From the IMG/VR virus record IMGVR_UViG_3300030098_004452, positions 1-33,376 of that record: a DNA stretch of 33,376 bases, one strand, 5' to 3'. The first letter of the stretch is position 1. Each line of letters begins with the position of its first letter. The translations under genes were made by a program, and so were the position numbers. This DNA is from a virus. This document shows, one piece after another, positions 21,181-33,376 of the stretch. The notes under the pieces were generated by a model. It saw nothing but the letters and a program-made list of their open reading frames with translations, searched no databases and was not told where the DNA came from.

Positions 21181-21569
21181 GTAGATACCACAGCTTTCCC
21201 TATAGCGCTCAGATTCCAATATTAGTTGATGGGGTCAGAGAAGTAAGAAGGTTTGATAATATAGACGATGTTTGGGAGGTTGCAGATATGGTTATGAAAG
21301 AATCTGCCAAAATAAACGAAGAGCAAAAAATGTCTTTTGACGTTATCGAGTCTTTAGTGGCGCAAATTCCGTTTTTTGCTTGCTCTAACGCTTTTATGAA
21401 CGTGCATTTAAACGAAGACATAGAAAGGTATGTTTATTGCGAAAAATTCAATGTGCCTCCCTATGAAGGTTCTTATCAAAATCAGCCTGCTAAATGGGTT
21501 AGGCGAGCATTTGCAATCAGGAAAGCATTTGCTAAAAAAGAGAAGAAGGATGTAAATAGTGTCAAATAA
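21129..21569 (+). CDS. Tail assembly chaperone, T-like extension via -1 frameshift
   Basis: The extension adds 146 residues to 87 residues of the short form, making a fusion of about 233 aa, like lambda gpGT. It begins REALQVELNILLPTCGGCRY; a CxxC occurs early. Ordinary gene callers start it at the internal ATG 21288. No suitable leader precedes that ATG, so the frameshift is the likely way to express it. The T part binds the tail tube protein in lambda. It overlaps the tape measure start by 11 bases. Confidence 0.85.
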   Translation, partial: REALQVELNILLPTCGGCRYHSFPYSAQIPILVDGVREVRRFDNIDDVWEVADMVMKESAKINEEQKMSFDVIESLVAQIPFFACSNAFMNVHLNEDIERYVYCEKFNVPPYEGSYQNQPAKWVRRAFAIRKAFAKKEKKDVNSVK

Positions 21570-23937
21570 CATAATAGTAAGATTTCAACCTAAAGGCGAT
21601 AAAAGATTAATAAATTCACTTGAAAAGCTAGTTGCTTTACAAAAAGAATTAGCAGGTGCTACTAAAAAAACAGCATCAGCATTTGATGGTCTCGGTAAAA
21701 ACCAAAAACTTATCAATCAAAGAGTTAGCTCTAATATAACAGGGTTTAATAGCCTACAGTCTAGCGTGGCTATGCTAAGAAACAAGATTCTTTTAGCTTC
21801 ATTTGCTTTTACAGCTTTTAGCGCAACAATATTAAGGTTTACTAATGCCACAGGAAAAGCGAATGAAATAATTAGCAAGTCTAATGTTGTGTTTGGAGAA
21901 AATGCAGATGAGGTTAAAGAGTGGGCTGACTCTTATGGTAATGCTGTTGGTAGAGCCACTACTGACATTTTAGAGTTTGCTTCATCACTACAAGACACAT
22001 TTGTTCCTTTAGGCTTTGGTAGGCGTGAGGCAGCGGCACTTTCCCAAACATTAACTCGACTAGCTATAGATGTTGCAAGTTTTAACAATGCGTCTGATGC
22101 ACAAGTTTTAGAAGCTTTTAAAAGTGCAGTAGTTGGTAATCACGAAACTGTTAAAAGATATGGAATTATTATTAATGAAGCTGCTTTGCAGAAAGAGGCT
22201 CTTAGGTCTGGACTAATCAAAATTAAAAGACCTTTAACGGATTACGAAAAAGTTTTAGCTAGAGTTAATCTTATACAAAAAGGAACTACTGACGCTCAAG
22301 GTGATGCTATAAGAACATCTGATTCTTATGTTAATAAAGTAAAAGAACTTAATGCAGCCTGGACAGAGTTTAGCCAAGAAATAGGAGAAGTCCTGCTTCC
22401 TGCTGTAACAGTCTTGGTTGAAAAACTAACCGAGCTTTTACAGTCCCTAGATGTAAACAGGGTTGTAGGCTATTCTGCCGCTATTACTGGACTTGGGGCT
22501 GCTTACCTAGGAGCAAGAGCTGGGGCAACATTCCTTACAAGGGCTGCAAAATTACTTGGAAGGGGGCTGCTTGGAACTTCTGGTCTTATTGGAGGTACTG
22601 TTCTTGTTTTGGGAGAGCTAGCAAGCTGGTTTTTTAAGAACGAAGAAAAAACAAAGAGCCTTAAAAAAGAAGTAAAAGATATAGTTCCTGAGATAAAATC
22701 ATTAACCCAAGAATTAAAGGATCAAGGTTTTTCCGATTATGCCGCAATCATACAAGAGACAAGTAGAAGCTACGGAGACTTACAAACAGGCATAAAGTTA
22801 GTTGATAACGAGCTAAAAAAACTTGACCCTATGACATACGACCCTCTTCACGAAGTAACAGAAGAGGAAATCCAAAATGTTATAGATATATTTGATAAAG
22901 AAATTGAAGTTAAAAAGAACAGCGCCCTTATAAGCAAAGAATTAGGTAACTCATATGACAAGCTTGGCAATAAAGAACAAATTCTATTTAATCAGATTAA
23001 AGAGGGTAATATAGAAATTGACAAAAACAACAAGCTGGTCGAAATTCAAAACCAGTTCTCAGAATACAATTTAGCATTAGCTAACAAAGCAATAAATAAA
23101 GAAAACAGGATAAATGCTTTGATTAAAATGAAGGCTGATTTGCAGAAAAAGCTAAACAAACTTGCGGAAGAAAATGACGTGAAGATGGCGTTGTTATTTC
23201 CTAAGCTGAAAAACGAAATAGAGTTTCTTGAGTTAAAAAATAAATTTTCTGGAGACGAATTATTTGTTCAGCAAGAACTTATGAAATTAAAAATGAAAGG
23301 TATGGAATTAAACAGCGAGGCTGCTGATGGAGAAGAGAGCGAGCTTGAAAGATTTAAAAGACTAATAAAAGTGAAAAAAGATTTAACCGATGTTGAGAAG
23401 ATTCAATTAAATTGGGCTAACAAATTAAGCGATGCTCTTATACGAGGCGGTGAAAATAACGGAAAATATGCTGAAGCTTTTAAAGCTATGCTAGAAGATA
23501 TGGCAAAACAATTAGCTGCAAAAGCGGTCGTTTTTTCTTTCTTAAATATTCTTTCTGGAGGCACTTTTGCAGGCGGGTGGGGAGGCAAAAACTTCTTAAA
23601 TTTTGTTGGAGGAGCTGGAGGGGGAATATTTCATCAAGGTGGTCAAGTTCAAGGCTATGCAACAGGGGGAATGATACCTATGAACAGCTATCACTCTGGG
23701 GGAGGTGTAGATGACGTTCCTATTATGGCTCAAGAAGGTGAGTTTGTAATGCGAAGAAGTGCTGTAGAGTCTATAGGCGTTGAAAACTTAAATAGAATGA
23801 ATAGAACTGGACAAACAAGCGGTGGAGTAAATGTAACTTTTAGCGGAAATGTTGTAAGCGATGATTTTATAGAAGATGTAGCCATACCAAAAATTAAAGA
23901 TGCTATCCGAAGGGGTGCAGATATAGGTATCGGCTAA
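21559..23937 (+). CDS. Tape measure protein, 792 aa
   Basis: GTG start. Mostly alpha-helical with a hydrophobic patch near residues 260-355. The C-terminal part has GGVDDVPIMAQEGEFVMRRS...GVENLNRMNR, a typical tape-measure end. A preceding glycine-rich region (GGTFAGGWGGKNFLNFVGGA) suggests a flexible link. Using about 1.5 angstrom per residue, a tail near 120 nm is expected; that is an estimate. Sets tail length and likely helps DNA pass into the host. Confidence 0.9.
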   Translation: MSNNIIVRFQPKGDKRLINSLEKLVALQKELAGATKKTASAFDGLGKNQKLINQRVSSNITGFNSLQSSVAMLRNKILLASFAFTAFSATILRFTNATGKANEIISKSNVVFGENADEVKEWADSYGNAVGRATTDILEFASSLQDTFVPLGFGRREAAALSQTLTRLAIDVASFNNASDAQVLEAFKSAVVGNHETVKRYGIIINEAALQKEALRSGLIKIKRPLTDYEKVLARVNLIQKGTTDAQGDAIRTSDSYVNKVKELNAAWTEFSQEIGEVLLPAVTVLVEKLTELLQSLDVNRVVGYSAAITGLGAAYLGARAGATFLTRAAKLLGRGLLGTSGLIGGTVLVLGELASWFFKNEEKTKSLKKEVKDIVPEIKSLTQELKDQGFSDYAAIIQETSRSYGDLQTGIKLVDNELKKLDPMTYDPLHEVTEEEIQNVIDIFDKEIEVKKNSALISKELGNSYDKLGNKEQILFNQIKEGNIEIDKNNKLVEIQNQFSEYNLALANKAINKENRINALIKMKADLQKKLNKLAEENDVKMALLFPKLKNEIEFLELKNKFSGDELFVQQELMKLKMKGMELNSEAADGEESELERFKRLIKVKKDLTDVEKIQLNWANKLSDALIRGGENNGKYAEAFKAMLEDMAKQLAAKAVVFSFLNILSGGTFAGGWGGKNFLNFVGGAGGGIFHQGGQVQGYATGGMIPMNSYHSGGGVDDVPIMAQEGEFVMRRSAVESIGVENLNRMNRTGQTSGGVNVTFSGNVVSDDFIEDVAIPKIKDAIRRGADIGIG

Positions 23938-26900
23938 TGTTAAATGTCCCACAAAATTTTTTAAATGGGTTTGTCGGCAAAGCTTCTTCTGTTTACCCTA
24001 TAGTTATTATAAGAACAGGGGACAAAACAATAAGACTATCTCAAATAAAAGGTGTATTTGACGGAGAATATTATGAGGATAGGTTTTTAGTTGTAGATTC
24101 TATAAGTGAAAAAATAAACATTCAGGAAAAATCCTTCCAAGTAAACCAGGTTAAAATAAAGGTATCTAACTACATTATAAGTCAAGTAAGGTTTTCAGAG
24201 AAGTTTAAAAATTTTTCATTTACAAACGCTGAAGTAGATATTTATTATGCCAACAAAGCTTGTAAAACTTTAGAAGAGTGTCTTCATATATTTAAAGGAT
24301 TTGTTAAAAGCTATGAAGGAGACAAGGAATCTGTGTCTTTTAATATTGAAGACCATAGCCAATACACATTAGACCAAAAAAACCTTCCAAAACACAGCAC
24401 CGTAGACCCTGAAGCTGAGACTGTAGAGGAAAGTAAAGATGTTTACTTTCCTATGGTTTATGGTCACGTAGAAAAATCACCTATGATATTTAGCAAAGGT
24501 GTAAACGGGACTGTTTTTTCTCAGATATACCCAGAAGCTATTATGTATGGAGTAAAAATAAAGGGCATAGTTGACAATATAGACAATCCTCTTTCTATGT
24601 TTAGAGATGATATGTATCTGCCTGTTCCAGAGGTTTTTAGAGACCTTCCTGAAGACTTCTTTGTAAATGGATATGATTATAGTAAATATAACGGTACGAG
24701 GCAATATGATATATCTCCAGACAGAAATTGGATTCAGCTAGAAAAAAAATCAACAGACTTTAATAGTTCGTATCTTCTTCCTTTAAATGTAGCAGCTAGA
24801 GATCAGTTTCAAGTTGATGTTAGCAGACCAGTAACTGGGATAAGCGCTGACACTTCTGCTGGCGAAGGGGATGACGATACTGGTAATTATTTAAATTATG
24901 GTGATGCTGGTGGGATTAGGTATTTAGGCAGAGCTGATGGCTTTGAGCCTTATGGAGAAAACAACGACTGGCTATTCCCATTTCCTTCTGGACAGTTAAA
25001 AATGGGTTATTATCAAGATTTTGTATTAGGTGGGATTGTTAGAAAATGGAGAAAGTATTATAATGCCGCAGGCGGTGGGTCTGGTCAGGATAGTTATCTT
25101 TACGGAGAAAGTTCTCACGCCTGTTTATATTACCATATGGCTACAAGCACCCCTACAGCAGATGGTATAAAAGGTTTTGATATGGTTTACCTTCCTATGC
25201 CAGAAGGAGAAGGGCAAACAGAACTTATACAGTATTTTAATGAAGATTATATTCAAGAAAACAACATAGTGGAAATAAATTGGAAAATGGGCGACAGCTT
25301 AGTTGATGCTTATGATGAAGACCCTGATTTTTTACCGCAACCTGGCAATGCTTACGGAGGTTTGTGGAACGGTCATAGCTATGCAGATTTTGACCCTGAT
25401 AATTCTTCAGGATTCCCAGAAGACTCTGACTGGTTTGCGCTATACCAAACAGGAACGGTTTATAAAAAAAGGAAAAATTGGTATCAATATCTTTGGGGTG
25501 TAGAGCTAAAAAATAGCAATGGAGAGGTTGTTGATGTTATTGGTATAGACAATCAAAATTTAGGGGAAAACAATGAAGGTGTAAGCTTAGACCTTGTTAT
25601 AAAGCCTGAGGTTTATGCTTGGATAAATGTGCTTGATGCCCAGTTCAATGAAGAGGGAAATAACGAGGAAATGTACCCAGAGCTACAGCCAGATTCGGTT
25701 ATTAATTTAAGAAAGTTGCTTTGGGGCAGAAAAGTCACAGTAGCTGAAAGTAATTTTGCTTTTAATCCAGCAGACGAATCATTAAACCCTAAATCTATAC
25801 CAACAGGCTCTTCTGTGTATGGACTATACCCTTGCTTAGGGTACAATGTTCCTAAAGCATCAGATAAAGCAGATGAGTATTATACAGAACACAATCCTTT
25901 TGCAAATGGTTATCAATGGAGATTTGAGCATTTTGAGTTAGTTGTAGATAATTTATTTTCTTATAAAAATCCATATCTTTTAAATCCCCAAGACCCTATT
26001 GGCGATTACAGATGGGATAACATTTTGTTTTCTCTTGAAAAATTTAATTATAATCAATTAAATACACCCGAAGAACAAAACAGGCTTGTTATAACAAAAC
26101 ACGACTCTGAAAAAAGCTATATAAACAATCAAGATACTGCTGGGAGGATTGCCTTTTATGGAAACCAACCATTTGAGTTTGTCGAATCTGTGGCGGACCT
26201 TCCTACTGGACCAGAACCTGATATAGACCACGCATACCAAGCATCAAACATAGTATCAGCAGGTATAGAAAAAGTAAATGGTGGAAACTGGTGTCCGATA
26301 AATAACACAGAAGGTAAAAAGGACTTGGTAAAATTAGACCTAACCTTTCAGTCTTTAAGTGGGGACGATGTTGTTTTGGGGGGAGTATATAGTAAAATCA
26401 GAGGAAAAATTACGGTAGATTTATGGAAAGTTCCAAGCGATCAAGAATATCAGGGTGCGGCTGGAGATATGCCAACTTTTAGAGTGCAATGCGATGCCCT
26501 GCATAAAAATGAAGATGAAGTAGTTTATGGGGCTGATATTTTTAATCTCCCAGACACAGAAACAGACGACAACGGAGAGCCTTCCAATGAGGGCGATATA
26601 CAGCATTACTCAACAGGAGACCCAGGGTTTGGTTTTAACACTTCTGAGGAAGATGCTGAATCGGGTATAACATTTGACGAAAACGACCCTCAGTACTTTA
26701 ATACAGATTGTACAGCTTATGAAGATGAAGATGAAGACCAATGGAGGGAGAATATAAACTCATTAAATACTATATCACTATATTATGATATAGACGCTGA
26801 AAATCTTAGTAATGAGTGTGAGACAACAACGACAACATACTTTAAAACAAATATTAAAAACTTTACTTTAGACCAAAGATATATTGTCGCCAACGCATCT

Positions 26901-28139
26901 CATCAGAAATATTTTGCCAACATTGAGGGCAGAGTAGATAATGCAGACGGAAGATATACTGGCGTTGAAGATTTAGATGAACAGCAACTAATTAAGAGAC
27001 CTTCTGATATAATTATGCACATTATGGAAAGAGAATTAGATTATTACAATGTAGATTCTTTCGACCAAGAATCTATAGAGCAGGCTCGTTCTAATCACGG
27101 AGGCTGGAAATTTGGCTTTTCAATAACAGAAAAAACCCCAGCTAAAGAGTTTATAGCAGACTTTGCTAAAAGCACAAAACTAATACCAAGATTTAGGCAT
27201 AATGGAACATTTGGATTTATAAATATATTTGAAAGCTATAATGGAGCAGACGCAGTCATAAATGCCGCTGACGTATCTAAGTTTAAATATTCAAAAACCC
27301 CTATGGAAGACGTAAAGCTTATGGTAAGAGTTAAATATATGTATGATTATGGGAACGATACATACACAGAAGCTACAAATTTAAGTAATGACGGTGCTGT
27401 TCCTAAAAATGTTGAAGCTATGCAAGAAATGTATGCTATAAATAGCTTATCAGACGCTTATTTAGAGGTAGAGTCTAAATATATAAGAGATTATAATACA
27501 GCTTTACTTTTAAGGAACTATTTGCTTGAATGGCATAAAAATCAACATAATATTATTGACTGTACTTTACCTCCCAAGTATATGTATTTAGAGTGTGGCG
27601 ATGTGGTTGAGCTTGATTCTTTAATTGAAGAAATGACCATATTTGGAGAAGATTACACAAGCCCTTATTTTATGGGTGGCGAGCCAGATGGGACTAATTA
27701 TGCACAAAGAATATTGCCATTCTTTATTGTTCAGGAAATAAAAAAGTCTCAAAAAAATGTAAAAGTTAAGCTAATTCAATTACATCAACACAATATAATG
27801 AATATAGACAACAATAGCCCCAACTATTTTACAGCTGATTTTTATAACCCTGTAGAAGAGTTTTCTGTATCTTCTCAAGTAGTAGAAGAAGAAGTTATTG
27901 ATGATGGGAATGGAGACGATGATGACGAAACTATTGTATTAGGGGATGTTGATGGCGATAATGCGGTAACTGTACTTGATATCGTTGCTGTTGTTCAAGT
28001 CGTTCTTGGAAATACCACTCTGGAAGGAAGTCAAGCAACAGCCGCAGATTACGACCAAGACGGAGTTATTACGGTTCTTGATATTGTACAAATTGTTCAG
28101 GTTATTCTTAATAATACCCCAGACCAGGGAGGACTATGA
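23937..28139 (+). CDS. Large tail-tip protein with C-terminal dockerin-like module, 1400 aa
   Basis: The N-terminal ~150 residues (VYPIVIIRTGDKTIRLSQIK region) fit a distal-tail or hub-like fold. Long beta-rich segments follow. Residues ~1000-1300 contain PAKEFIADFAKSTKLIPRFR, typical of a tail hub or baseplate protein. After an acidic linker (DDGNGDDDDE), residues 1336-1400 hold two calcium-loop repeats, DVDGDNAVTVLD...ADYDQDGVITVLD, each followed by a VLDIVxxVQVxL helix: a type I dockerin-like pair. Overlaps next gene by four bases (ATGA). Probably at the tail tip and exposed to the host surface. Confidence 0.7.
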   Translation: MLNVPQNFLNGFVGKASSVYPIVIIRTGDKTIRLSQIKGVFDGEYYEDRFLVVDSISEKINIQEKSFQVNQVKIKVSNYIISQVRFSEKFKNFSFTNAEVDIYYANKACKTLEECLHIFKGFVKSYEGDKESVSFNIEDHSQYTLDQKNLPKHSTVDPEAETVEESKDVYFPMVYGHVEKSPMIFSKGVNGTVFSQIYPEAIMYGVKIKGIVDNIDNPLSMFRDDMYLPVPEVFRDLPEDFFVNGYDYSKYNGTRQYDISPDRNWIQLEKKSTDFNSSYLLPLNVAARDQFQVDVSRPVTGISADTSAGEGDDDTGNYLNYGDAGGIRYLGRADGFEPYGENNDWLFPFPSGQLKMGYYQDFVLGGIVRKWRKYYNAAGGGSGQDSYLYGESSHACLYYHMATSTPTADGIKGFDMVYLPMPEGEGQTELIQYFNEDYIQENNIVEINWKMGDSLVDAYDEDPDFLPQPGNAYGGLWNGHSYADFDPDNSSGFPEDSDWFALYQTGTVYKKRKNWYQYLWGVELKNSNGEVVDVIGIDNQNLGENNEGVSLDLVIKPEVYAWINVLDAQFNEEGNNEEMYPELQPDSVINLRKLLWGRKVTVAESNFAFNPADESLNPKSIPTGSSVYGLYPCLGYNVPKASDKADEYYTEHNPFANGYQWRFEHFELVVDNLFSYKNPYLLNPQDPIGDYRWDNILFSLEKFNYNQLNTPEEQNRLVITKHDSEKSYINNQDTAGRIAFYGNQPFEFVESVADLPTGPEPDIDHAYQASNIVSAGIEKVNGGNWCPINNTEGKKDLVKLDLTFQSLSGDDVVLGGVYSKIRGKITVDLWKVPSDQEYQGAAGDMPTFRVQCDALHKNEDEVVYGADIFNLPDTETDDNGEPSNEGDIQHYSTGDPGFGFNTSEEDAESGITFDENDPQYFNTDCTAYEDEDEDQWRENINSLNTISLYYDIDAENLSNECETTTTTYFKTNIKNFTLDQRYIVANASHQKYFANIEGRVDNADGRYTGVEDLDEQQLIKRPSDIIMHIMERELDYYNVDSFDQESIEQARSNHGGWKFGFSITEKTPAKEFIADFAKSTKLIPRFRHNGTFGFINIFESYNGADAVINAADVSKFKYSKTPMEDVKLMVRVKYMYDYGNDTYTEATNLSNDGAVPKNVEAMQEMYAINSLSDAYLEVESKYIRDYNTALLLRNYLLEWHKNQHNIIDCTLPPKYMYLECGDVVELDSLIEEMTIFGEDYTSPYFMGGEPDGTNYAQRILPFFIVQEIKKSQKNVKVKLIQLHQHNIMNIDNNSPNYFTADFYNPVEEFSVSSQVVEEEVIDDGNGDDDDETIVLGDVDGDNAVTVLDIVAVVQVVLGNTTLEGSQATAADYDQDGVITVLDIVQIVQVILNNTPDQGGL

Positions 28140-28714
28140 CAAGTGCAACAATAACATATAACGATGGCGCTGTTTATTTAGAGTGCGATGGAAACCCTTT
28201 GGTTATAAAAATATCATACGAAGGAAAAATTTCTGCCGAATCGGCTTTGCCTAGCGGCTTTATAATACAAGAAAAGAATAATGTTATGCTTATTATAAGA
28301 ATGGTAGATGTTCAATTCCCAGAGCATCTTTTTAATTATGTTGGCAGTTTTAAGATAAAAAGAGCCGATCTATACAATAAAGAAATGAGAATTACTGCAA
28401 ACTTTAAAACAAACACCCATTACTTTTATAAAATTAGAGATAATTGGGAACAGATGAATAGTCAATGGTCAGAATATTACGAGGGTTATGAGTACGGACA
28501 ATCCGAAAAAAGAAGAACAGATATTGTTACTAATAATTTAGAATCAAAATCAGGCTCTTTAGTGCTAAAAGACGGAACTCCTTATTACGGGGATGTTCAC
28601 TTTCATTCAAATGGTCGTTTTATGACAGGTGCAAAACATAACAAAGACTCTAAATTGCTGTACAAAAAAAAGAAAAAAAGAATTATTAAAAACGGAATTG
28701 CAAGGAAAATTTAA
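28136..28714 (+). CDS. Tail-associated structural protein, 192 aa
   Basis: A beta-rich start (TITYNDGAVYLECDGNPLVI), then a helical middle. The end contains YYGDVHFHSNGRFMTGAKHN, a YxG-x-xHxH-x-NGxxMTGxxH motif known from virion proteins of marine T4-like and siphophages. A very basic tail (KKKKKRIIKNG) follows. It lies between two tail-tip genes. Role in baseplate assembly is likely but undefined. Confidence 0.6.
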   Translation: MTSATITYNDGAVYLECDGNPLVIKISYEGKISAESALPSGFIIQEKNNVMLIIRMVDVQFPEHLFNYVGSFKIKRADLYNKEMRITANFKTNTHYFYKIRDNWEQMNSQWSEYYEGYEYGQSEKRRTDIVTNNLESKSGSLVLKDGTPYYGDVHFHSNGRFMTGAKHNKDSKLLYKKKKKRIIKNGIARKI

Positions 28715-28725
28715 GGAGATTATTA

Positions 28726-29844
28726 ATGGCTAATCAAAGTGTTGGAACGCCAAGATTTTATGTAGACTTTACACAGCTAGCTAGGCTAAAGGGTGATTAT
28801 TTTTGGTCTGAAGACTACCAGTCTGCTATAAATATCACAGATGATGAGGATGGTCAAAGACCTCATAGGGTTTGGAATTTTGACTTTTATGACGTGCAGA
28901 CATATCAAGTCTTTAGTGATACTGAAGGGTTTGGGTGGAAGTTTACTTTTAATCCAAATTCGCCTATATCAAGACTTATATCTGTTTCAAACTGGGCAGG
29001 AGTTTTTAACCATAAGCTTGCATCTGATTTATCCACCCCTTTTGTTTCAAGGCTTAACGCTAAATTTTTTGCGCAGTCTGGAGTGGCTACAGATCATTAT
29101 AACGTAGGGGATTTTACAGATTCTTCTATTCCTTTCGACAGAGATTATAATGCTTCTTTGGTGGAAAAAAATGGGTTCTCATTGTTTGAGTTTCCTTCCC
29201 CAGACACAGAAACTCCTTTTATAGAATTTTGGCTTTTAAACTATCCTACTGAAGTAGATGTGGCTGGAGGTATTAGCTTGCTTGGGAAAACCGTTGATAT
29301 TGGAGCTATAGGGTTTGGGAGATATTACGATATGCCTCAAGCACCAGATTTAAGTGTAAAAAAATCAATAGAATATGAAGGCGTTAAAATACAAAGAACT
29401 TTAGGTGGTGGAGATTATGTCCAGATTGACAATTTTGGGACACCTGACTGGATTAGTGGAGAGCCTTGGGCTTTAGTTCATCCAGATGAAAGCAACTTAA
29501 GGCTTGGAAGGCACGGAAGACGCTCTTGGCAGTTAAGCTTTAGTTATATTAGTAATGATGATTTGTTTTTTGACACAAATAGACTTAACTCTTTTGCAGA
29601 CCTAGAGTTTATAGTAGAAGAAACAGAAAGAGGGTCAAGAGACAATATAGTGACAGCGGGGACAGAGATACAGCAAATATTTGACCTTACTATGTGCGGA
29701 GGGTTAAGCTTTGTGTTCACGCCTGATAAAGATGCCGATAACCCTGAGTTTGCTCAATGCAGAATAGACCAAAATTCTTTATCAGCTACACAAATAGCTC
29801 ACCAATGCTGGAACATATCTATGAATATAGTAGAGGTGTGGTAA
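28726..29844 (+). CDS. Tail/baseplate structural protein, 372 aa
   Basis: A Phe/Tyr/Trp/Asp-rich beta protein (VGTPRFYVDFTQLARLKGDY at the start) with a WNFDFYDVQTYQVFS segment, typical of tail-tip proteins in this phage type. Last gene of the rightward virion transcript. Its stop is directly next to the stop of the leftward NinB-like gene, with no terminator in between. No specific fold assigned. Confidence 0.6.
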   Translation: MANQSVGTPRFYVDFTQLARLKGDYFWSEDYQSAINITDDEDGQRPHRVWNFDFYDVQTYQVFSDTEGFGWKFTFNPNSPISRLISVSNWAGVFNHKLASDLSTPFVSRLNAKFFAQSGVATDHYNVGDFTDSSIPFDRDYNASLVEKNGFSLFEFPSPDTETPFIEFWLLNYPTEVDVAGGISLLGKTVDIGAIGFGRYYDMPQAPDLSVKKSIEYEGVKIQRTLGGGDYVQIDNFGTPDWISGEPWALVHPDESNLRLGRHGRRSWQLSFSYISNDDLFFDTNRLNSFADLEFIVEETERGSRDNIVTAGTEIQQIFDLTMCGGLSFVFTPDKDADNPEFAQCRIDQNSLSATQIAHQCWNISMNIVEVW

Positions 29845-32751: not shown

Positions 32752-33110
32752 TTTTTTCTCTTGTTAAAGAAGGAGGCTAAGGCTTCTTGAACTTCATACT
32801 CCTCAGCCCCTTCTGATTCTTTTACTTTTTGCAAGGTCTCATTTTTATAACCCTGCTCTACAACTTCTTTTGAGTCCTCAAGTTCGTCCTCCCACCTTTT
32901 TTGGTTCAACCAAGTAGATGGGTGTGGTATAAATTGTTTCTCTGTTTTACTGCTCTCCCAAAACTTAATATAATTAACAAGACCATCATAAGCCAACTGC
33001 TTTTCTCTTTTATTAAGTTTCTTAAAAGACCTTTGAGCAACAACCCTACCAATTTTTCTAGGATATAGCTTATAAAACTTATCGAAAGTTATATCTTTGA
33101 AGTCTGGCAT
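32742..33110 (-). CDS. Replication-initiator-like protein, 122 aa
   Basis: Starts at 33110 (MPDFKDITFDKFYKLYPRKI) one base after the SSB-like stop codon. The pattern F-x-x-FYKLYPRK-x-G...A...F-x-KL, then FIPHPSTWLNQKRWEDEL (about residues 77-94), is the C-terminal signature of phage replication proteins of the O/DnaD-like group that load host helicase. It lacks the usual N-terminal winged-helix DNA-binding domain, so it may rely on another protein for origin recognition. Function is inferred from the motif. Confidence 0.7.
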   Translation of the reverse strand: MPDFKDITFDKFYKLYPRKIGRVVAQRSFKKLNKREKQLAYDGLVNYIKFWESSKTEKQFIPHPSTWLNQKRWEDELEDSKEVVEQGYKNETLQKVKESEGAEEYEVQEALASFFNKRKKWK

Positions 33111-33376
33111 ACTAAAAAGGTATGTCATTTGCACTTAATTGGTTAGACTTTAAAGAATCCAACTCCTCTTTAAGCTTTTTGTTTTCAGCTCTTAACGACT
33201 CCAATTCATCGTTAGACGATTTTGGCTTTGCTTTCTCTATTTTTTTAAACGATCCACCACTATTCATATCAGTAATAGATAAGCCATTTACTTTAAAAAA
33301 TGTCATCTCTAGGTCTTGACACTTCTCAATAGTGATTTCATCGCCCTCACCCGCACCTAAAGTCTTTATCATACTA
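33096..33376. repeat. Right copy of the terminal overlap
   Basis: Matches 1-281 at 274 of 281 positions. It contains the last 86 codons of the SSB-like gene, cut off by the end of the window. The differences cause K to R and E to K in the protein; the other four changes are silent. Joining the copies gives a circle of 33,095 bases. Confidence 0.9.
33112..33376 (-). CDS. SSB-like protein, 3' part (second, truncated copy)
   Basis: Same gene as 17-445, represented here only by its C-terminal half because the window ends. The coiled-coil linker and ANDIPF end are intact. It should be annotated once in a circularised genome. Confidence 0.85.
   Translation of the reverse strand, partial: SMIKTLGAGEGDEITIEKCQDLEMTFFKVNGLSITDMNSGGSFKKIEKAKPKSSNDELESLRAENKKLKEELDSLKSNQLSANDIPF

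Follow-up and report, generated by a model that had tools for sequence, protein, structure and literature searches.

Introduction

In phage lambda, the C-terminal end of the tail-tip hub protein gpJ contacts the receptor LamB. Type I dockerins are stable, small calcium modules whose recognition pair is classically located at loop positions 10-11, which are Ser-Thr in clostridial dockerins. Dockerins and gpJ-like hubs are each already known kinds of protein; here, we describe a viral protein that, by profile and predicted fold, joins the two.

The window, which is the whole 33,376-base stretch of DNA that we analysed, is a virus record carrying terminase, capsid, lysozyme, tail tube and tape measure genes, the usual head and tail set. 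A direct repeat of 281 bases is found at both of its ends (1-281 and 33096-33376), and because of this terminal repeat we read the window as probably a near-complete genome. The two copies are 98% identical rather than exact, which may reflect slight population variation or an assembly effect. The genes of interest lie in the tail module:

21559-23937, + strand: tape measure protein, directly upstream of the hub gene, with matches to tail-length tape measure PHROGs (e.g. phrog_8462, E = 4e-14)
23937-28139, + strand: tail-tip hub protein (gpJ-like by predicted fold), an ORF of 1400 amino acids following the tape measure gene, with a dockerin at its C-terminus
28136-29844, + strand: two tail-module genes (192 and 372 amino acids) after the hub gene, their order conserved in relatives (blastp against related viral loci)

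Results

The hub protein ends in a type I dockerin

An initial annotation of this DNA had proposed a type I dockerin at the C-terminal end of a phage tail protein, on the basis of two D-x-D-x-D...D loops that are each followed by a VLDIVxxVQVxL helix. Both repeats are indeed present, within the last 65 residues of the 1400-residue protein:

27942-28121, + strand: type I dockerin module (residues 1336-1395), above the curated cutoff of PF00404 and related to solved dockerins by profile and fold
27945-27980, + strand: first calcium loop, D1337-x-D1339-x-D1341...D1348, followed by helix 1 (from the sequence)
28047-28082, + strand: second calcium loop, D1371-x-D1373-x-D1375...D1382, followed by helix 3 (from the sequence)

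Within the ORF, GDVDGDNAVTVLDIVAVVQVVL starts at residue 1336 (base 27942) and ADYDQDGVITVLDIVQIVQVIL starts at residue 1370 (base 28044), and an aspartate is found wherever a calcium ligand is expected, at positions 1, 3, 5 and 12 of each loop (eight in total). We conclude from the profile match, the homology to solved dockerins and the predicted fold that residues 1336-1395 form a genuine type I dockerin. The Pfam search that had been suggested, with PF00404 (Dockerin_1), matches residues 1335-1388 at 32.6 bits, above the cutoff of 22.9 (E = 9.1e-8), and a six-frame search recovers the dockerin at 38.9 bits (E = 3.4e-11). A profile of the phage module, in turn, recovers solved cellulosomal dockerins at E-values from 3e-7 to 1e-5. 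An AlphaFold2 model of the last 73 residues, built with 41 phage dockerins, has a mean pLDDT of 88 (94-97 in its core) and folds into the anticipated F-hand pair of a dockerin. The 33 leading Foldseek matches to this model are all dockerins (33/33), and the best structural alignment, to 2ccl_B, has a Z-score of 12.2 and an rmsd of 0.9 Å over 62 residues. The profile and fold matches exclude a chance motif or another type of EF-hand.

The protein is a gpJ-like hub by predicted fold

Two further parts of the protein precede the dockerin:

26904-27815, + strand: hub domain beside the dockerin (residues 990-1293), found by BLAST in 58 dockerin-bearing viral ORFs (alignment A6) and matching hub folds
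27816-27935, + strand: flexible acidic linker (residues 1294-1333; VSSQVVEEEVIDDGNGDDDDETIV), from its sequence and from a pLDDT below 50 at model residues 305-341

In a model of residues 990-1400 (mean pLDDT 77), the predicted fold of residues 990-1293 aligns with the hubs of phages chi, lambda (gpJ), JBD30, T1 and T5 at Z-scores of 12-17, with phage chi (Z = 17.0) and lambda gpJ (Z = 16.8) superposing at an rmsd of 3.4-3.9 Å over about 240 residues; Foldseek with the hub model gives an E-value of 4e-11. The sequence identity of the window's hub to known siphophage hubs is only ~10-12%, and the sole Pfam match to the 1400-residue protein besides the dockerin is to Phage-tail_3 (PF13550) at 14.2 bits, below the cutoff of 23. 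By its modelled fold, the protein is a gpJ-like tail-tip hub and a remote relative that lies outside PF13550 at its cutoff; its earlier description as a phage tail protein is borne out in this refined form. In the tail module, its gene is the next one downstream of the tape measure gene. Because the C-terminal end of lambda gpJ makes the receptor contact, the dockerin would occupy the place where a receptor-binding end is expected. The acidic flexible linker that had been noted in front of the dockerin is present (approximately residues 1306-1333), and the model predicts disorder across residues 1294-1330.

We also considered whether the protein is a cellulosome component and rejected this assignment, as there is no enzyme or scaffoldin among the phage proteins scanned and the protein's fold is that of a tail hub.

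Phage and marine Neomarinimicrobiota dockerins have a recognition signature in common

We then compared dockerin repeats, extracted by HMM alignment, from phages and from cellular groups that were sampled by different routes; the cellular sets were retrieved without using the LD[IV]V motif. The motif LD[IV][VI] is found at loop positions 11-14 in 48 of 80 repeats from marine Neomarinimicrobiota, and in 69 of 84 phage repeats, a figure that is inflated because the retrieval pattern for the set of 42 viral dockerins contained LD[IV]V. Elsewhere, it occurs in 0/69 Bacteroidota, 2/103 Bacillota, 0/30 other Neomarinimicrobiota and 1/24 other repeats. When dockerins are instead retrieved through the hub, L remains the most frequent residue at that loop position (11) in both repeats, and the window's dockerin has VL at loop positions 10-11 of both. 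The closest cellular group is marine Neomarinimicrobiota for 33 of the 42 phage dockerins. By these comparisons, the phage dockerins have a recognition signature in common with the dockerins of marine Candidatus Neomarinimicrobiota, where the label marine is taken from the record name of a genome and from what is generally known. On the same basis, the viral contigs of this group also appear to be marine.

Among the cellular dockerins sampled, the nearest reach ~53% identity to the dockerin of the window and at most 63% to any of the 42 phage dockerins. Capture of the domain from a host, which the initial annotation had raised, is plausible as its ultimate origin; a recent capture is not seen at these identities.

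Dockerins and cohesins are common in the candidate host phylum

When 84,980 species genomes were scanned with the phage dockerin profile, the best four among the matches listed were from Candidatus Neomarinimicrobiota (Marinimicrobia). In this phylum, dockerins are found in 92 of 149 genomes. A search for cohesins in candidate hosts, also proposed at the outset, finds them to be common here: 91 of 149 Neomarinimicrobiota genomes have one, compared to 1 of 150 Pseudomonadota. The two go together, as cohesins occur in 74 of 92 dockerin-bearing versus 17 of 57 dockerin-free Neomarinimicrobiota genomes (Fisher p = 1e-9, from hand-counted genomes). Eight Neomarinimicrobiota genomes of 1.4-1.9 Mb (G004, G005, G006, G007, G047, G112, G126 and G133) have 46-69 dockerin matches each. 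Their dockerins are mostly located at the extreme C-terminus, and many of the proteins carrying them start with a signal peptide; these eight dockerin-rich genomes apparently encode a dockerin-tagged secretome that is so far undescribed.

The cohesins detected by Pfam are few, between one and five per genome in the dockerin-rich genomes that we looked at. The cohesins of the phylum include several candidate receptors, with signal peptides, lipoboxes and T9SS-type ends assigned by eye: a cohesin protein of ~180 amino acids with a lipobox (L168, in G007), cohesins of ~250 amino acids that start with a signal peptide and have a C-terminus of the T9SS type (L173 in G006 and L175 in G001) and one protein with both a cohesin and a dockerin (L171, in G004). 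In two genomes, the gene for the ~250-residue T9SS-tailed cohesin adjoins a murA-like gene.

With the hub profile as query, prophage-like loci are detected in 4 of 245 Neomarinimicrobiota genomes (best E = 1.6e-47), in 1 of 296 Bacteroidota genomes (a partial match) and in 0 of 299 Pseudomonadota genomes. Three of these five loci have capsid and further tail genes in common with the window, and this gene sharing is seen in Neomarinimicrobiota prophages. The dockerin is absent from all five prophage-like hubs, whose ORFs terminate with the hub domain or close to it, and the genomes hosting them have 0-2 dockerins each. Prophages without a dockerin in dockerin-poor hosts fit a module that pays only where the host uses the dockerin code. 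With the hub profile, no dockerin-bearing phage was found inside the Neomarinimicrobiota, Bacteroidota or Pseudomonadota genomes. The 372-residue tail protein encoded after the hub has no match in 244 Neomarinimicrobiota genomes and is therefore of no help to the host link. Together with the signature, these loci point indirectly to Neomarinimicrobiota as the likely host of these particular phages.

The dockerin is retained across divergent hubs

A dockerin-only scan of the viral collection yielded 133 confirmed viral loci, 80 of which were kept, and direct BLAST identified a hub that is common to the window and 58 dockerin ORFs (residues about 980-1300). To avoid circularity, the viral collection was also scanned with the hub only, leaving the dockerin out; we used two smaller alignments (A7 and A8), the 32-hub alignment being too diverse, and obtained 133 distinct contigs, a number that agrees with the dockerin scan by coincidence. 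In these hub-only scans, whose alignments were themselves mostly built from dockerin-bearing relatives, a dockerin follows the hub in the same ORF in 113 of the 120 cases where the end of the ORF can be seen. It lies within 15 residues of the C-terminus in 113 of 119 cases (median distance, 2 residues), and the stretch separating it from the hub is anywhere between about 15 and 390 amino acids long. The dockerin is retained, with its calcium ligands kept, across hubs down to ~30% identity, and close relatives with complete C-termini all have one.

This retention bears directly on the reading in which the dockerin was taken from the host and is now carried passively, with no present function. 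Its host-like sequence and the abundance of dockerins in the likely host phylum are what such a capture would produce, but a module without function would hardly persist in 113 of 120 hub ORFs on such divergent hubs with intact calcium ligands. We regard passive carriage, already disfavoured, as very improbable.

Several loci depart from the common arrangement. In a distant relative (L012:9422-13614), the hub is split into two ORFs of 630 and 766 amino acids, and its dockerin lacks the first calcium loop and keeps the second repeat intact. At two other loci (L034:7827-11069 and L060:3942-8075), a dockerin is located near the N-terminus of long ORFs (1080 and 1377 amino acids) that are unrelated to the hub.

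The whole 1400-residue protein had no tblastn match in the annotated phage collection, and the hub alignment, used as a query against genome contigs, found no relative. BFVD contains unnamed predicted structures of close relatives, the best with 57% identity over the hub-dockerin region; the sequences are therefore public, though the feature is apparently undescribed.

The dockerin is exchanged and varied between close phages

Between close phages, the dockerin diverges far more than the hub does, and it can be replaced as a unit. In one pair (L367/L379), DNA identity is 96-100% as far as the dockerin, drops to ~53-66% over it and is back at 96-100% right after the stop codon; the proteins are near-identical over the 70 residues before the dockerin. 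In two other pairs (L345/L347 and L342/L343), the swapped piece consists of the dockerin and its preceding domain, and in a fourth (L354/L363), dockerins that are 98% identical are found on hubs that are 86% identical.

Sequence changes within the dockerin follow a pattern. The calcium aspartates at loop positions 1, 5 and 12 show a single change in 186 comparisons across 31 independent pairs, and D1, D5 and D12 are invariant in both repeats of 41 aligned phage dockerins. Several positions on the outer helix faces have changed in about half of the 31 pairs. In several close pairs, dN/dS is higher in the dockerin than upstream, with few substitutions per pair. At the level of sequence, this exchange between close phages is as would be expected of a receptor-specificity cassette.

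A second variable segment lies ~0.6-1.2 kb beyond the end of the hub ORF in L342/L343, L345/L347 and L367/L379, where identity again falls between close phages; judging from this pattern, it may be another host-interaction gene.

The same data weigh on two other roles for the dockerin. It may bind a host cohesin as a tether and not as the primary receptor contact, keeping virions attached to the dockerin-cohesin assemblies of cells, vesicles or particles so as to raise the encounter rate, with another tail protein making the irreversible contact. A flexible and acidic linker, a dockerin at the outermost end and two further conserved tail genes after the hub would all suit a tether. Cassette exchange and rapid change, however, hit the dockerin itself, as they would the main specificity determinant, and no separate receptor-binding domain was identified, though outside any systematic search. 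We consider this role unlikely.

Alternatively, the dockerin may be structural, acting as a calcium-stabilised cap or an oligomerisation element or docking on a virion protein, with no host cohesin involved. Near-universal retention and the general stability of dockerins as small calcium modules would agree with such a role, but structural parts are rarely exchanged as exact cassettes or variable on their outer faces, and the related Neomarinimicrobiota prophage hubs stop straight after the hub and do without a dockerin. In addition, no cohesin scores above the cutoff in 27 phage records, where there is one sub-cutoff match of 13.8 bits. A phage-encoded cohesin partner was consequently rejected for these records, and because of this result a partner internal to the phage is unlikely. 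A purely structural dockerin is thus, in our judgement, distinctly improbable.

Discussion

We consider it probable that the dockerin is a receptor-binding module that mimics host dockerins, through which the tail tip plugs into a cohesin on the host surface; we infer both the binding and its use in adsorption. If the hub is a trimer like gpJ, a valency that we presume, up to three dockerins would be displayed at each tail tip on their flexible acidic linkers. A calcium-loaded dockerin would then insert into a host cohesin exported to the cell surface, whose normal role there would be to hold the host's own dockerin-tagged secreted proteins. The phage would adsorb by imitating the host's plug. 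Extending this to the group, we lean towards the view that phages of dockerin-rich Neomarinimicrobiota use their host's dockerin-cohesin code, with an exchangeable dockerin at the tail tip and surface cohesins as the receptors.

Dockerins also occur on another type of viral protein. Three viral loci (L018:784-1962, L051:3816-4943 and L055:7020-8276) and eight others (L015, L019, L023, L024, L025, L027, L052 and L053) code for a trypsin-like serine protease that has a lipoprotein-type signal and, close to its C-terminus, a dockerin. The stretches of these contigs that we examined contain no hub homologue. It is a matter of speculation that a phage's dockerin-tagged protease could act at the same host cohesins, for example in superinfection exclusion.

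In a literature search that covered few subscription journals and no preprints, we found no precedent for a dockerin-hub fusion serving as an exchangeable tail-tip specificity module. Three articles mention both phage and dockerin (PMC5967307, PMC3558961 and PMC9377139) and are not precedents: their subjects are a model based on homology to a carbohydrate-binding module, a single BLAST hit and genes of host MAGs.

If the mimicry reading is true, the socket of this receptor-binding module would be defined in advance, which would be unusual for a phage; specificity could be read from the dockerin sequence and checked with purified pairs. It would also provide a molecular entry to the host and a receptor assignment for phages of a largely uncultured phylum, for which host and receptor are normally both unavailable. 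The findings point to a dockerin-cohesin surface system in Neomarinimicrobiota that is undescribed in the literature searched, and suggest that its own display system makes the host vulnerable to phages.

The phage dockerin can be compared to four known or related systems. The type I dockerins of Clostridium thermocellum (1ohz and 2ccl) have the same pair of 12-residue calcium loops, with a helix after each loop and a linker helix in addition, and the same size of ~60 amino acids and C-terminal position. In contrast to theirs, which are carried on a secreted enzyme, the phage dockerin is carried on a tail-tip protein, and its loop positions 10-11 are V/I-L where the clostridial pair is generally known as Ser-Thr. 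The NagJ-NagH pair of Clostridium perfringens (2ozn) likewise uses a dockerin for protein attachment outside cellulosomes (2ozn_B, Z = 6.0); that dockerin and cohesin are bacterial, whereas the phage dockerin is viral. The dockerin-tagged secretome of marine Neomarinimicrobiota has the same signature and the same extreme C-terminal placement, but its proteins have signal peptides, while the phage hub lacks one and would be displayed by the virion. Finally, the window protein has its predicted hub fold in common with lambda gpJ and the hubs of T1, chi, JBD30 and T5 (pb3). It differs from these hubs at its C-terminal end, which consists of a dockerin carried on an acidic linker and would act as a protein plug with a predefined socket.
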